Shown: piece by piece, positions 9,757 to 21,305 of the stretch | How positions within the stretch are numbered: the first letter of the stretch is position 1 | How the letters are laid out: each line of letters starts with the position of its first letter | IMG/VR virus record: IMGVR_UViG_3300046462_001161 | Span: 1-39,895 of that record | Length of the DNA stretch: 39,895 nt | DNA from: a virus | Reading direction: 5' to 3' (one strand) | Made by a program: the position numbers and the translations under genes | The notes under the pieces: generated by a model | Databases searched by the model: none | What the model was told of the DNA's origin: nothing | Seen by the model: only the letters and a program-made list of their open reading frames with translations

Positions 9757-9894
9757 CGGCGAGGCTCATAGCTGGCTCGGAAGTTTGACCCGCTGTGAAC
9801 CGGTCGCTACGGTGTGACGCGACCTACCACCCGTTTAACGGATCTGCTGGTCGCAACGGATTCGTTAAGCATGAACAAGCATCTGGGAGCTAGC

Positions 9895-11439
9895 ATGCAC
9901 CTCGTGAGACTGTTCAAGCCTGTCGGCAAGTATGCCCGCATATCCGATGACCAGGAAGAAGAGGGCAAGGGCGTTGCCCGTCAGGTCAAAGACTGTACGA
10001 CCCTGCTGGGTCTCCGCGACTGGTTGGGCGACGACGAACACACCTACATAGACAACGATGTTTCGGCCTACCGGCGCGGAGTCGTCCGCCCCGAGTGGGA
10101 ACGGATGATGCGGGACCTGGAAGAGGGCCGCATCGGCGGAATCGTGGTCTACGACCTGGACCGATTTGCCAGGCAGCCCAAGGACCTCGAACGGGCGATC
10201 GAGATATACGCCACCCGGGGAAACCTGGTGTTCGCCACAGTCCAGGGTGACATCAACCTGATGACCCCGGACGGAATCACCATGGCCCGCGTCATGGTGG
10301 CCTTCGCCAACAAAGCATCCATGGACACAGCGCGCCGAATGGCGCGGAAGCACCTCGAACAGGCGCAGAACGGTATCCCCGTGGGCGGCTGGCGCCCCGC
10401 TGGGTGGCTCGACGACAAACGAACCCTAGATCCGTTCGAGTCGGAACTCATCAAGGGCGCGGCGGCGCAGATCCTCGCTGGGGTGCCGCTGGCCACCATC
10501 GTTCGAGAATGGAACTCTGCGGGGTTCCTCACACCCGCAGGCAACCCATGGTCGCGGGGGCCTTTTCGTGGCCTGATGATGAGTGCCCGCCTGGCGGGGT
10601 GGCGCGACCTCAAGGGCGAGCCCGTGTACGACGACGCCGGGGACCGCGTACGCGGGAAGTGGACGGCAATCCTGTCAGACGACACTCACGCGGCCCTGGT
10701 AAAGACTTTCAAGGCGGAAGGCCGGGGCGGGGGCGTCCACGAACGCCCCGGCAAAAAGAAGTATCTCCTTGCCGGCATCGTCCAATGTGGCGTGTGCTTC
10801 AGCCCCATGCATGGACACCCCGGCGGTAAGAAACTGCCGGGGCGTCACTACTACGCCTGCCCGTCGCCCACGAACAACGCGAAGAGTTGCGGGGGGCCTT
10901 CCGCTTCAGGGATTGAGGTTGACCGGCTGGTTACCGACCTGTTCCACGAGCAAGGCGCGGTGCGACGGGCGCAGCCCGTAGACAGTACCGCCCGCATAGC
11001 GGCGCTCACGGCAGAGCTTGAGGAGGTCATGGGGCAGATACGACAGTTGGGCGCGGACTTCGGCGCAAGGAGGGTGCCCGCCGAGTTTGTAAATGCGGCT
11101 CTGGGCCCGCTCAACGAATCGCGAGCAACGATCACGGAAGAGCTGGACACACTCAACGCGGCCAAGATGCAAGGTGACCTAGTGCAACACTTGGGGTCCA
11201 AGCCGTGGGACAAGCTAGAAACCGATGAAAAGCGGGCGCTGATCGCCTCTCAGTTCCCGTCCGTACTGATCATGCCTCGAACGACGAACATCGGCCCGAA
11301 GTTCGACCCTGAGCGGGTCGTCCCATCTCGGACCAGAGTAGTTCGGTCCGGCGAATGGACTCCGAGGAAGGCGGCCCCAGCCGCTTCATCTGAGTCTGGA
11401 CCCACGCCCGACGCTGAGCCTCTGACAGTTGAGCCATAG
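9895..11439 (+). CDS. int: large serine integrase
   Basis: ATG at 9895 follows GGGAG; the frame extends to 9814, but the shorter start puts the resolvase fold at the N terminus. The 514 residues contain the catalytic domain with Ser17 in KYARISDDQ and the Arg cluster VYDLDRFARQ. Next come the recombinase domain (about 165-270, GWRPAGWLDDKRTLDP), a zinc ribbon (QCGVC...YYACPS...KSCGG) and a coiled coil (IAALTAELEEVMGQIRQLG). It joins phage attP to a bacterial attB and sets up lysogeny. Directionality would normally need a separate factor, which is not identified here. Confidence 0.95.
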   Translation: MHLVRLFKPVGKYARISDDQEEEGKGVARQVKDCTTLLGLRDWLGDDEHTYIDNDVSAYRRGVVRPEWERMMRDLEEGRIGGIVVYDLDRFARQPKDLERAIEIYATRGNLVFATVQGDINLMTPDGITMARVMVAFANKASMDTARRMARKHLEQAQNGIPVGGWRPAGWLDDKRTLDPFESELIKGAAAQILAGVPLATIVREWNSAGFLTPAGNPWSRGPFRGLMMSARLAGWRDLKGEPVYDDAGDRVRGKWTAILSDDTHAALVKTFKAEGRGGGVHERPGKKKYLLAGIVQCGVCFSPMHGHPGGKKLPGRHYYACPSPTNNAKSCGGPSASGIEVDRLVTDLFHEQGAVRRAQPVDSTARIAALTAELEEVMGQIRQLGADFGARRVPAEFVNAALGPLNESRATITEELDTLNAAKMQGDLVQHLGSKPWDKLETDEKRALIASQFPSVLIMPRTTNIGPKFDPERVVPSRTRVVRSGEWTPRKAAPAASSESGPTPDAEPLTVEP

Positions 11440-11485: not shown

Positions 11486-11527
11486 AAGTATCTCCCTTGA
11501 CGACTTGGACCGTCAAGGGAGCTAAGT
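11486..11527. promoter_or_regulatory. inverted pair of 17-bp operator-like sites
   Basis: The left site (11486-11502, minus orientation) reads CGTCAAGGGAGATACTT and the right site (11511-11527) reads CGTCAAGGGAGCTAAGT. Both match the motif perfectly and are separated by 8 bp. The left copy ends in TTGACG and the right ends in TAAGT, resembling promoter boxes 20 bp apart. Confidence 0.65.
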
Positions 11528-12037
11528 GGAGGGTTGCCGCGATTTACGGCCCGAGATTTTGGCCCGGGATTTCGCCAGCGGATTTAGGCCGAGGGTTACT
11601 CTCCGACAGGCGCCCTTGTGGGCTCCCGTTGCGGGGCGCGTTGGTGGCTCGCTTGGAGCGGCCCCGTTTTGGGGGCCGTTTTGGGGGCCGTTTCCGGCTC
11701 CATTTTTGGGCCCGTTCCCGGGGCGGTTGGTTGTGCTCGTCTCGGCCCGTTCCGGGCCGCGCCTGTCGGGCTGTTCGGCGTGGCGCCTTGGGGCGCACTG
11801 GTCGCCGCCGTGGGCGGCGCGTGGCCCCCGCTGGCTGGCTGTTCGCGGGAAGCTCAGGCGGCCTGTCGAAGCCGTAGCACCACCAGTGCTACGGGCGAGC
11901 GCACGGCTTGCCGGCGTTGCCCCCGCCTGGCGTTGCCGCTCAGGGCGGCCGGGGCTTGCCTGCGTGGCGGCATGGGGTGCCGGCGTACCGGCTGGCCGGG
12001 CCTCGACCCGGCGGCCCCGGGCGGGGCCGGGCTGGTC

Positions 12038-12053
12038 ATAGCGCTAGCGCTAT
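12038..12053. repeat. 16-bp perfect palindrome
   Basis: ATAGCGCTAGCGCTAT, followed by an AT-rich run (TATACC then GAAAATTTTTCC, 12053-12075) that is unusual in this GC-rich sequence. The combination suits a protein-binding site at an origin or recombination site; the function is unknown. Confidence 0.45.
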
Positions 12054-12238
12054 ATACCGGTGAAAATTTTTCCAGGGTCTTCTTTGCGGGCGCGCAGGCG
12101 CGCACGTACAAACTCATGCCCTGTCCGATCGGCAACCTTCGCCCGATTCACCCACTGGCGTCCGAGAGATTCCGCTTCTGGGCGATAGGCGCACCGTGGG
12201 ATAGCACACCCCTTGATGTTCTGGAATGTCCGTTTCCC

Positions 12239-15912: not shown

Positions 15913-16813
15913 GGGCGCAGCTAGCCACCGGAGTTCACATCCCACACCCACACCTAGCCAAGCCGGGCAAGCCAAGCCACGTGCCAGCCAAGCCACACAG
16001 CACACAGCACACCCGCACACGGCCCCATAGCCACGCACACGGCCGACCACGGCCGAGACGGGCAGGCACAGCGGCCAGCCAACGGCAGGGCGCCACACGG
16101 GCAGCCCGAACCATCCCCCCGAGATCACACACCCACCCCCACCACACACACCCAAGACAAGACAAGTCACCAGCAAGCCCACACAGACACCGGCAGCACA
16201 CCCACTAAGGCACACCCCAAGACACAGCATCCGGGCACGTCAAGCCCTGCCAAGGGCGCCTAACCCATCCCCCGGAAACGCATACCCACCCCCGGTTTCA
16301 CGCTTCCGGCCGACCGACCACGGTCGGGGGGTACACCCATGTCACATCAATCAACCATGCAAACTCGAATGTCCGAATACAACCAATGCATTCACATTGA
16401 AACACAAAACGAATGATCGGAAACAAAGATGCAGGGATAGGGGGGTCAAAAGCGTAATGTCCGATATGGCGAGGACCCGCGCAGGTTTATTTTTTACGCT
16501 GCACATTTGGCCGGCGTTTTGCACCGCAAAGCAAACAGGGCCCTCAGTGGGGCCCCGGTCGAAAAGCTCGACGTGGGGGCCGTTGAAGGCCCTGCGGGGC
16601 ACAGCTTGGCACCGCCGAAGGGTCGTCGTCAAGCGAGATAAGTGCGAAGTTTCACGGCTTCTCATCGGTTACAGCTCTGATCCTGGCGGATCACGCTGTG
16701 TGGTGTGACGAAGGGCACAGCGGCTAGAGAGCCGGAAGTGTCCGCAACCCCGAAGAGAGGTCATGTGTTCTATAAGTGGGGGGGTAGGGGGGGCCAATAC
16801 TGGCCCTTGAACA
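15913..16813. other. non-coding region before packaging genes
   Basis: About 0.9 kb without an acceptable gene. 15940-16230 is C/A-rich low-complexity DNA. A hairpin CCGACC/GGTCGG lies near 16310-16327. 16340-16500 is unusually AT-rich for the window. A GGGCCC/GGGCCC hairpin lies at 16538-16555. Being just upstream of HNH and terminase, this is where a cos or pac site would be expected; no cleavage site can be defined. Confidence 0.5.
16627..16643 (+). promoter_or_regulatory. 17-bp operator-like site (one mismatch)
   Basis: CGTCAAGCGAGATAAGT differs from CGTCAAGGGAnnTAMKT at position 8 only. It is intergenic, about 190 bp before the hairpin array. Confidence 0.5.
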
Positions 16814-17071
16814 GGGCTTCCGTAGAAGCCCCGAAGGGCGCCAGCCCGAGAGGGGCTGTCACCCCACAAGAACCCCTGAAGGGGTTCGCCGCCAGAGCGA
16901 ACCCCCTACAGGCTCGCTTAAGGCGAGCCTAATAGCGCGCGTAAGGCGCGCGAGCCAGGGCGTTCGCTCCTTCGGGCTACCGCCGCTTCAACTACCCGCC
17001 GGCTTACCCCGGCGGGGTGACACATGGCGCCCTTGAGGGGCGCATGTCGCATCGGCCCTTAAGGCCGATGC
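16814..17071 (+). repeat. array of eight or nine short hairpins
   Basis: Stems (left arm start to right arm end): 16814-16831, 16842-16858, 16870-16887, alternative 16881-16905, 16910-16930, 16935-16951, 16995-17016, 17022-17047, 17049-17071. Arms are 6-10 bp and mostly perfect, with 4-7 base loops, several containing TTAAG, CTTAA or GTAAG. GGGGTTCGC (16881-16889) can pair with the arm before or after it. No gene fits. The array ends 32 bases before the HNH gene. Confidence 0.7.
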
Positions 17072-17102
17072 TCTTAGAGGGGGGTTCAACATCCCTCGCT
17101 CT

Positions 17103-17369
17103 ATGTGCCGCCGATGCCGGCGGCTAGTTCCTCTCGGTGAAGCTTTTTGCCCGCAGCACCGGGCAGAAGCCCGGTACACATCTGCGTGGGCGACCAACAG
17201 TCGCCTAGCGCGGCTGGCCAATCCGTTTTGTGTCACGTGCGGTTCGGTCGTTGACCTCACCGCCGATCACATCATTCCGCGTTCGCGAGGAGGGTCAGAC
17301 GAACTCCACAACATACAAGTTCTGTGCCGACCCTGTAACTCTAGGAAGCTGAACCACCGAAGGAGGTGA
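17103..17369 (+). CDS. HNH endonuclease
   Basis: An 88-residue protein. N-terminal cysteines (MCRRC...FCPQH) precede the HNH core: [20 protein letters not shown], then [20 protein letters not shown], with the two Cys-X2-Cys zinc pairs and the D-H/N/H metal site. HNH proteins next to terminase in HK97-like phages work with the terminase in cutting DNA at cos during packaging. No strong ribosome site is near the ATG and no in-frame alternative exists upstream, so the start is moderately sure. Confidence 0.85.
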
Positions 17370-17374
17370 ATTCT

Positions 17375-17833
17375 TTGCCGGGGCCGTTGCCGAAACCGAC
17401 TCACCTAAAAGTCTTGACCGGTAATCCGGGCAACAGGCCGCTACCAGAGAATGAACCTCAGCCCCTAAAGGGCGAACCGCGGATGCCTTCCTGGCTGAAG
17501 GGCCGCGCGCGGTCCGCCTGGAGGGAACTAGTCCCGGAGCTGGCCCGCATCGGGCTGCTGACCGTGGTGGATGGTCACGCCCTCGCCGTGTACTGCGAGG
17601 CGTGGGCCACGTACGTTCAGGCCTCCGAAATCGTGCGCGCTGAAGGAATCCTGATCGACTCCTACCGGGGCGGCAAGGCGAAGAACCCGGCCGCCCAGAT
17701 CATGCGCGACAGCGCAGACCTGATGATGAAGGTTGGCGGGCAGTACGGCCTTACGCCGGCAACCCGCACCCGTCTCCAGGTGCCGGACGACGGTACGGAC
17801 GGCTTCGACATGGAATCGCTGTTGAGCGGCTGA
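17375..17833 (+). CDS. terminase small subunit (P27 family)
   Basis: A TTG start at 17375 is chosen because AAGGAGGTGA ends 5 bases before it; a GTG at 17366 lies inside that ribosome site. The 152 residues begin PGPLPKPTHLKVLTGNPGNR and contain KGRARSAWRELVPELARIGL and VDGHALAVYCEAWATYVQAS, the P27-like pattern, then GGQYGLTPATRTRL. The subunit recognises phage DNA and loads the large subunit. The large subunit is 1.8 kb downstream, separated by extra genes, which is unusual. Confidence 0.85.
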   Translation: MPGPLPKPTHLKVLTGNPGNRPLPENEPQPLKGEPRMPSWLKGRARSAWRELVPELARIGLLTVVDGHALAVYCEAWATYVQASEIVRAEGILIDSYRGGKAKNPAAQIMRDSADLMMKVGGQYGLTPATRTRLQVPDDGTDGFDMESLLSG

Positions 17834-19643: not shown

Positions 19644-21305
19644 TTGGGGGTGCGGATGCTTCTCGCCCCCCACGCTCCGCAGGACGCCGCCGAGGGCCTG
19701 TTCCGTTGGGACCAGGGCGCGGCTGACCGCGTCGTGAACTTCTTCGAAAAGGTGCTCGTCCACACCAAGGGCCGGCACGCCCGAACCCCTTTCTTGCTTG
19801 CCGACTGGCAAAAGAATGACATTGTGGTCCCGCTTTTCGGGACCATGGGCTATGACGAGCAGTACGACGAGTGGGTACGCCAGTACCGCGTTGCGTGGCT
19901 CGAAATGGCTCGCAAGAACGGCAAGAGCGAGCTTGCCTCCGGCTTCGCCCTGTACGGCCTTGTAGGCGACGGGGAAGAGTCGGCCGAGGTGTATTCGGTC
20001 GCGGCTGACCGCGACCAAGCCTCATTGGTTTTCGACGTGGCCCGCCGGATGGTCGAGCTGTCTCCCATCCTGTCTAAGCGGCTCGTGGTGGTCTCGTCCA
20101 AGAAGCGCATCATCGACCCGTCTACGAACTCGTTCTATGCGGTGCTGCCCGGAGACGCCTCTGGCGCTCTTGGCACCAACCCGTCAATGGTCCTCTTTGA
20201 CGAGGTTCTGACCCAGAAAGACCGGCACCTGTGGGACGCGATGCGCCAAGGATTCGGTACCCGACGTCAGCCGATTCTCATTGCTACCACTACCGCCGCG
20301 TACACGTCGGCGCGTTTCGCTTTGGAGGAACACGAGTATGGAGAACAACTCCTCGCCAACCCTTCCGGCGACCCCGCCCGGTATGTGTTCATGCGAAACA
20401 CACCGCGCGATTGGGACTGGCGAGACGAAGGGAAGCCAGGCGATCCCGACACCGGAGAGCCCGCAACCGGCTGGTACCACGCCAACCCCGCCCTTGGCGA
20501 CTTCCTCAGCCTTGGAAACCTCCGATCCGAAGCCATAGAGGCCGAGTCGAAGCCGTCCGCTGAGAACGCCTTCCGGGTGTTCCGGCTGAACCAGTGGGTG
20601 AGCCAGGCGGAGCGCTGGCTAGACATGGCCGTGTGGGACGCGAACGCGGCTGAGGCCGTGTCGCGGGAGGCCCTGAAGGGCCGCTGCTGCTTCGCCGGCC
20701 TGGACCTGGCGAGCGTGAGCGACTTCACCGCGTGGGTTCTGCTCTTCCCGGGCTCCCCTGAGGACCCGGACGCCGAGGGCTTCACACTTCTCCCCCGCTT
20801 CTGGATACCGCGCAAGGCGCTTAAAGCCCGCGGGGCGCAGCGCCAAACCCTTGAGTACTGGCGGGACCTCGGTTACCTCACCATCACCGATTCTGACACC
20901 ACGGATTACAACGTGGTGAAGGAAGAGATAGCCCAAGACGCCGAAGACTTTTGCATTGACCTGTTCGGCTATGACCCGTGGAACGCCACGCACCTAGTGA
21001 GCGAGCTTGAAGACGGCGGGCTTGACGGCGTTAAGGCGCCCCAGACCTCGGCCCGCATGACGGACCCGTGCAAGTGGCTGGAAAGCCTTCTTGCGCAGGG
21101 CCTTCTACACCACGGCGGTAACCCCGTTCTCCGCTGGATGGCGGACAACGTAGAGGTCCAGTACACGGGGGAAGGCCTGTTCAAGCCTTCTAAGGCCAAG
21201 TCTGGCGACAAGATCGACGGCATTAGCGCGCTGCTGAACGCGCTGTTTGTTGCATTCACTGAAGACGACGCAGAGGCGGGTTTTGTCAGCCTGACCGATG
21301 ACTAA
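19644..21305 (+). CDS. terminase large subunit
   Basis: Up to 553 residues. The start is uncertain among TTG 19644, GTG 19650 and ATG 19656. The N-terminal ATPase has the adenine-binding region (RTPFLLADWQ), Walker A-like LEMARKNGKSELASG (about residues 88-98), Walker B SMVLFDE and the coupling motif ATTTAA. The C-terminal nuclease has FAGLDLASVSDFTAW and later acidic residues (FGYDPWNATHLV). It powers DNA into the prohead and cuts the concatemer. Confidence 0.95.
   Translation: MGVRMLLAPHAPQDAAEGLFRWDQGAADRVVNFFEKVLVHTKGRHARTPFLLADWQKNDIVVPLFGTMGYDEQYDEWVRQYRVAWLEMARKNGKSELASGFALYGLVGDGEESAEVYSVAADRDQASLVFDVARRMVELSPILSKRLVVVSSKKRIIDPSTNSFYAVLPGDASGALGTNPSMVLFDEVLTQKDRHLWDAMRQGFGTRRQPILIATTTAAYTSARFALEEHEYGEQLLANPSGDPARYVFMRNTPRDWDWRDEGKPGDPDTGEPATGWYHANPALGDFLSLGNLRSEAIEAESKPSAENAFRVFRLNQWVSQAERWLDMAVWDANAAEAVSREALKGRCCFAGLDLASVSDFTAWVLLFPGSPEDPDAEGFTLLPRFWIPRKALKARGAQRQTLEYWRDLGYLTITDSDTTDYNVVKEEIAQDAEDFCIDLFGYDPWNATHLVSELEDGGLDGVKAPQTSARMTDPCKWLESLLAQGLLHHGGNPVLRWMADNVEVQYTGEGLFKPSKAKSGDKIDGISALLNALFVAFTEDDAEAGFVSLTDD

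Follow-up and report, generated by a model that had tools for sequence, protein, structure and literature searches.

A hairpin array ahead of the HNH and terminase genes of a putative Streptomyces-type phage: a candidate structured leader of the late mRNA

What is the role of a chain of short hairpins, with no gene to account for it, directly ahead of the packaging genes of a phage? The array lies in a phage genome, the whole of IMG/VR virus record IMGVR_UViG_3300046462_001161 (39,895 bases), which is referred to here as the window. The first-pass annotation of this sequence offered three proposals for the hairpins, namely, a structured leader RNA, a packaging site, and a non-coding RNA. The genes needed to place the array are as follows.

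9814-11439, serine integrase
17103-17369, + strand, HNH endonuclease gene (PF01844), with a possible earlier start at ATC 17091
17366-17833, + strand, terminase small subunit (PF05119)
19644-21305, + strand, terminase large subunit (PF03354, PF20441)

The gene order after HNH is that of a phage, with the small and large terminase subunits followed by the portal, protease, and capsid, and the window is likely to derive from a Streptomyces-type cos phage, the host assignment being putative. A search for relatives of the HNH protein at E 1e-18 found none in approximately 1,090 bacterial genomes, a sample drawn from the class to which a Mycobacterium genome belongs and from two additional families of that class. 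Strong hairpins also occur at 11490-12100 of the window. In L112, the serine integrase is followed by another GC stretch rich in hairpins, which contains GCCCGTTTT-like words, and L156 contains a stretch nearly identical to this one.

The array at 16791-17071 comprises nine perfect, non-overlapping hairpins with stems of 6 to 9 bp and loops of 4 to 7 bases, and a tenth hairpin reaches the start of HNH.

16791-16806, + strand, hairpin 1, GGGCCA-atac-TGGCCC
16814-16831, + strand, hairpin 2, GGGCTTC-cgta-GAAGCCC
16842-16858, + strand, hairpin 3, CAGCCC-gagag-GGGCTG, with a stem that is invariant in the window, L003, L010, and L011
16881-16905, + strand, hairpin 4, GGGGTTCGC-cgccaga-GCGAACCCC
16910-16930, + strand, hairpin 5, AGGCTCGC-ttaag-GCGAGCCT
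16936-16952, + strand, hairpin 6, CGCGCG-taagg-CGCGCG
16995-17016, + strand, hairpin 7, CCCGCCGG-cttacc-CCGGCGGG, with an invariant stem and a variable loop in relatives
17027-17043, + strand, hairpin 8, GCGCCC-ttgag-GGGCGC, with a two-sided change at one pair in relatives
17049-17071, + strand, hairpin 9, GCATCGGCC-cttaa-GGCCGATGC, with two pairs changed on both sides in relatives
17075-17103, + strand, hairpin 10 (-14.0 kcal/mol), over a G-run that is the likely HNH ribosome-binding site

The claim of nine mostly perfect stems without an explaining gene holds. In 200 dinucleotide shuffles of the array region, hairpins averaged 0.82 and never exceeded 3, and the best 270-base stretch elsewhere in the window contains 5 hairpins, against 8 in the array. 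The array had been said to start at 16814, which is too late, as the first hairpin begins 23 bases earlier. The reported loops TTAAG, CTTAA, and GTAAG do occur, and many of the loops start with a pyrimidine and end with a purine (cttaa, ttaag, ttgag, ctga). Hairpin 3 does have a perfect stem, but its probability is approximately zero in the full-length fold because a long-range AGCCCGA:TCGGGCT pairing competes with it. The fold z-scores of the region are -6.9 for the + strand and -7.9 for the - strand as RNA and -8.4 as DNA.

These hairpins are explained by no Rfam family, tRNA, direct repeat, or open reading frame. The array region contains neither a tRNA nor a tmRNA, and the Rfam scan of the array returned no family above the curated gathering threshold (weak matches fell far below it), in agreement with the first-pass statement that no named element has this layout. 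A coding explanation was ruled out by frame-breaking indels of whole hairpins between relatives. Palindromes of Streptomyces telomeres were likewise rejected, as kilobases of sequence flank the array on either side in the window, L003, and L004, which makes it internal. The protein sponge RNAs CsrB and RsmZ resemble the array in stringing together short hairpins that have similar loops but differ in their stems; their loops carry GGA, whereas the array heads a protein operon and GGA is not found in the list of its loops.

Relatives were collected by searches with the small terminase and HNH proteins and fall into a close group A (L002, L003-L005, L006, L008, L010, and L011) and a more distant group B (L125-L134). 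All members of both groups carry hairpins at the same place with differing stems, and in the window and most relatives the number of hairpins is far above that of shuffled sequences. Whole hairpins have been gained or lost as units across 12 distinct loci, even between close relatives. In L003, L011, and L008, a hairpin with a different stem occupies the place of hairpin 5. The HNH proteins of relatives whose array stems differ are 73-92% identical. A short-word enrichment analysis singled out no loop or linker word common to the groups, and the more distant HNH relatives L202-L263 contain no comparable array with a box (described below) before HNH. One 89,947-base contig, IMGVR_UViG_3300046678_000420 (L130 and L134), contains the HNH region twice, in similar but non-identical copies separated by 45,042 bases, a pattern of tandem phage genomes or of an assembly join.

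Pairing of the array hairpins is maintained in the relatives. Hairpins 8 and 9 are alignable across five sequences, where 97.6% of their cells pair and three two-sided changes keep the pairing; the covariation score is 0.141, compared to 0.050 in shuffled alignments, with 0 of 500 shuffles scoring as high and slid controls scoring much lower. Compensatory changes, which the first-pass annotation had set as a refutation test, are thus present in these five aligned relatives. The sample is small and its members are closely related, so it supports pairing, be it as RNA or as DNA. Group A provides no strand evidence, since its - strand folds slightly better than its + strand; the strand asymmetry of folding is mixed.

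Four rivals to a leader role were weighed, in the order DNA packaging role, put-like antitermination, switch, and neutral palindromes. The turnover of stems bears first on the last of these, in which selfish or neutral palindromes are made by template switching or insertion and are tolerated in a noncoding stretch. The rapid gain and loss of whole hairpins, including an insert relative to L010, is consistent with this reading, and a template-switch mutation could yield two-sided changes. Against it, every group is rich in hairpins at this one place, unlike the rest of the window, and the two-sided changes fall within otherwise conserved hairpins; we regard neutral palindromes as highly improbable.

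The position of the array relative to the end of the virion DNA bears on a role in packaging.

16484, strand unassigned, probable left physical end of virion DNA (cos), within GACCCGCGCA^GGTTTATTTTTTACGCTGCA

L002 and L008, which differ in sequence, both begin at the base aligned to 16484 of the window, and the block around this position is conserved in groups A and B. Contigs including L156 continue past the aligned point, which argues that 16484 is not merely a universal assembly break. It is the probable physical left end of the phage DNA (cos), judging from these alignments, and it would place HNH 619 bases from the left end and the end itself approximately 300 bases upstream of the array. 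Immediately to its left, at 16360-16470, are TGTCC(G/C)AAT-like repeats, which occur at similar offsets in several relatives and are possible terminase or repressor sites. A - strand terminator-like hairpin lies at 16536-16557, about 50 bases inside the probable end, and near this end group B has a + strand GC hairpin followed by GTTTTC.

With a probable cos end on one side and the HNH and terminase genes on the other, the array could act in cis, as DNA, in packaging. It would then be an analogue of cosB or cosQ, with TerS, HNH, or TerL recognizing the palindromes in double-stranded or extruded form. The stems are nearly perfect Watson-Crick and fold equally well as DNA and on both strands, as such an element might. 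Beyond position, however, nothing about the array is specific to packaging. The packaging sites of known cos phages are sequence-specific, whereas the array stems vary between relatives with 73-92% identical HNH proteins; the array region contains no direct repeats, and the TGTCC repeats lie on the opposite side of the probable end. A packaging element is therefore unlikely, although it comes first among the rivals and deserves some weight.

Promoter-like signals lie between the probable left end and the array.

16704-16719, + strand, Crp-like box TGTGACGAAGGGCACA, with one mismatch to TGTGA-N6-TCACA
16771-16776, + strand, -10-like TATAAG, from which a transcript start would be expected near 16782

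The Crp-like box is the sole site in the window with at most one mismatch to TGTGA-N6-TCACA. It is present in 10 of 10 relatives tested and also in phages R4, Celia, and phiCAM, and every one of the 14 leaders tested has it as its best site, with 0 or 1 mismatch; the background is 7 sites per 381,840 bases of unrelated high-GC sequence, or an expected 0.007 per 400 nt. PMC10033298, citing Gao et al. 2012, gives the strong Crp consensus of Streptomyces coelicolor as GTG(N)6GNCAC, which the box fits. Rex sites, given in PMC2883068 as TTGTGAAW4TTCACAA, resemble the Crp box in form, so that Crp is only a putative regulator. The TATAAG word is 67 bases from the start of the box. In L010, L125, L126, L128, L129, and Celia, TAT(T)AAGT-like words occur at a distance of 54-56 bases, and the spacing in the window is longer than that of several relatives by 11, approximately one helical turn. 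A sigma-70 scan detected no promoter in the region of the box and TATAAG. The conservation of the box hints that the late promoter is subject to cAMP regulation by the host.

Structured leader RNA is the best supported of the three first-pass proposals, with a promoter-like region 5', HNH and terminase 3', and compensatory changes within. It is, in our judgment, an even call that the array forms the structured 5' leader of the late HNH-terminase mRNA and serves to shield and insulate it. The leader reading rests on the position of the array, the promoter-like signals, and a parallel in R4-like phages described below. The hairpins themselves, their upkeep by two-sided changes in aligned relatives, their turnover as units, and the conserved box and gene order are observed, whereas transcription of the region, its start point, and the shielding role are inferred. 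Transcription would be fired by a promoter with a Crp-like box immediately inside the left genome end, giving the late HNH-terminase operon a 5' untranslated leader of approximately 310 nt (roughly 16782-17090). The nascent RNA would fold into a chain of short GC stems with AU-rich linkers between them, and the trait that is kept would be hairpin density and not the individual stems. Such constancy of density in the face of changing stems favors a generic role as shield and insulator. The chain may protect the GC-rich RNA, which is long and untranslated, against Rho and RNases and may keep the HNH start within its own local fold.

A more specific regulatory role would be a translational or transcriptional switch, in which a choice of partners for GGGGTTCGC or the hairpin over the HNH start toggles expression. 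The first-pass annotation had reported that GGGGTTCGC can pair upstream (7 bp) or downstream (9 bp) and had likened this to an attenuator.

16870-16905, + strand, alternative hairpins, GAACCCC-tgaa-GGGGTTC versus hairpin 4

Both pairings are real, with energies of -10.8 kcal/mol for the upstream hairpin and -17.4 kcal/mol for the downstream hairpin, and this difference of 6.6 kcal/mol means that the downstream form dominates. The choice is limited to the window, the near-identical contig L002, and L011. It is created by an insert that L003 and L010 lack, L010 being an instance of the gain or loss of a hairpin as a unit, so it is not a conserved regulator and lacks support as the key feature of the array. 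No conserved pair of mutually exclusive stems was found among the relatives of the array, and the + strand of the array contains no GC hairpin followed by a T run that could act as an intrinsic terminator or attenuator.

Stable hairpins over the HNH start region are also present in L003, L006, L010, and L011, and the hairpin recurs in group A with stem pairs that include G-C, C-G, A-U, and G-U. Random G-runs in the window are equally occluded (median 0.08 unpaired), and G-runs of this genome are commonly so; the occlusion predicted for the ribosome-binding site of HNH was therefore rejected as evidence of translational control, being no stronger than that of random G-runs. Translation of HNH may begin at ATC 17091. 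Changes in the PRS codons before ATG 17103 are confined to third positions in group A, the position of ATC 17091 is occupied by TTG, ATG, or GTG in group B and L008, and L008 has GTA in place of the later ATG. The existence of both GGGGTTCGC pairings and the recurrence of the hairpin over the HNH start speak for a switch; set against the missing choice in L003 and L010, the energy gap between the two states, the lack of a downstream T-run terminator in the + orientation, and the general occlusion of G-runs, they leave it improbable, third among the rivals.

The leader reading draws further on R4-like Streptomyces phages (Arquatrovirinae: R4, Celia, Joe, phiCAM, and others), whose late leaders have the same order from the left end as the window, including the terminase genes. 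In 15 of these phages (R4, Celia, phiCAM, and 12 others), a box with 0-2 mismatches and a -10-like word precede a hairpin-bearing leader and HNH, and the window has this Streptomyces late-leader layout, with Crp-like box, -10-like word, hairpin-bearing leader, HNH, and terminase in order. In R4, Issmi, Omar, TrvxScott, and Celia, among others, HNH lies 639-744 bases from the left end, compared to the 619 bases from the probable end in the window. The R4-like leaders differ in having fewer hairpins and one well-defined covarying element, located immediately 5' of HNH and not found in the window group.

L167:583-641 (R4), the 58-nt R4-like element (model R1), with equivalents in L165, L170, and L172-L183

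All 246 of 246 cells in the 19 pairs of this element are paired across the 15 phages, 10 of the 19 pairs have changed on both sides, every slid control scores far lower, and its G-U wobbles pair as RNA on the + strand. Together these features are strong evidence that the element is a structured RNA. Scans of three records (R4, Celia, and phiCAM) against Rfam returned no match to the element, which is apparently undescribed in the openly licensed literature, where neither the window leader nor the R4-like leader was found to be described. Searched up to E 10, model R1 has no match in the window, in group A, or in group B, and no DNA similarity to the window region was found in the phage collection. 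The leaders are thus alike in place and character; homology of the array to the R4 element was dropped as a supported claim on account of the absent model match.

A single covarying element at the same place in R4-like phages, and an array that heads the late operon near the expected transcript start, also invite comparison with put of phage HK022, where hairpins at the head of a phage transcript act with no obvious protein partner. As a protein-independent antitermination RNA of this kind, the nascent hairpins would modify RNA polymerase so that terminators in the late operon are read through. Sites of the put type are short two-hairpin elements in which both sequence and structure are constrained, unlike the window leader with its 9-10 hairpins and their changing stems, and the groups do not all share any one element. 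Antitermination of this type is quite unlikely and ranks second among the rivals.

Joining the structured leader of the window to that of the R4-like phages gives a broader proposal, which we advance tentatively and consider unlikely as a whole. Several groups of Streptomyces-type cos phages would share a class of leader that is fired by host Crp, needs no phage protein, and promotes polymerase read-through of a long late operon, taking the form of a compact covarying element in R4-like phages and of a chain of interchangeable hairpins in the window group.

If it is transcribed, the leader would mark the onset of late gene expression, a step that has been poorly mapped in these phages, and it suggests that a host cAMP regulator helps to fire late expression. 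In the array, RNA evolution seems to preserve the density of hairpins and not a fixed fold, and the covarying R4 element provides a concrete, testable RNA family in phages that can be grown on laboratory Streptomyces.
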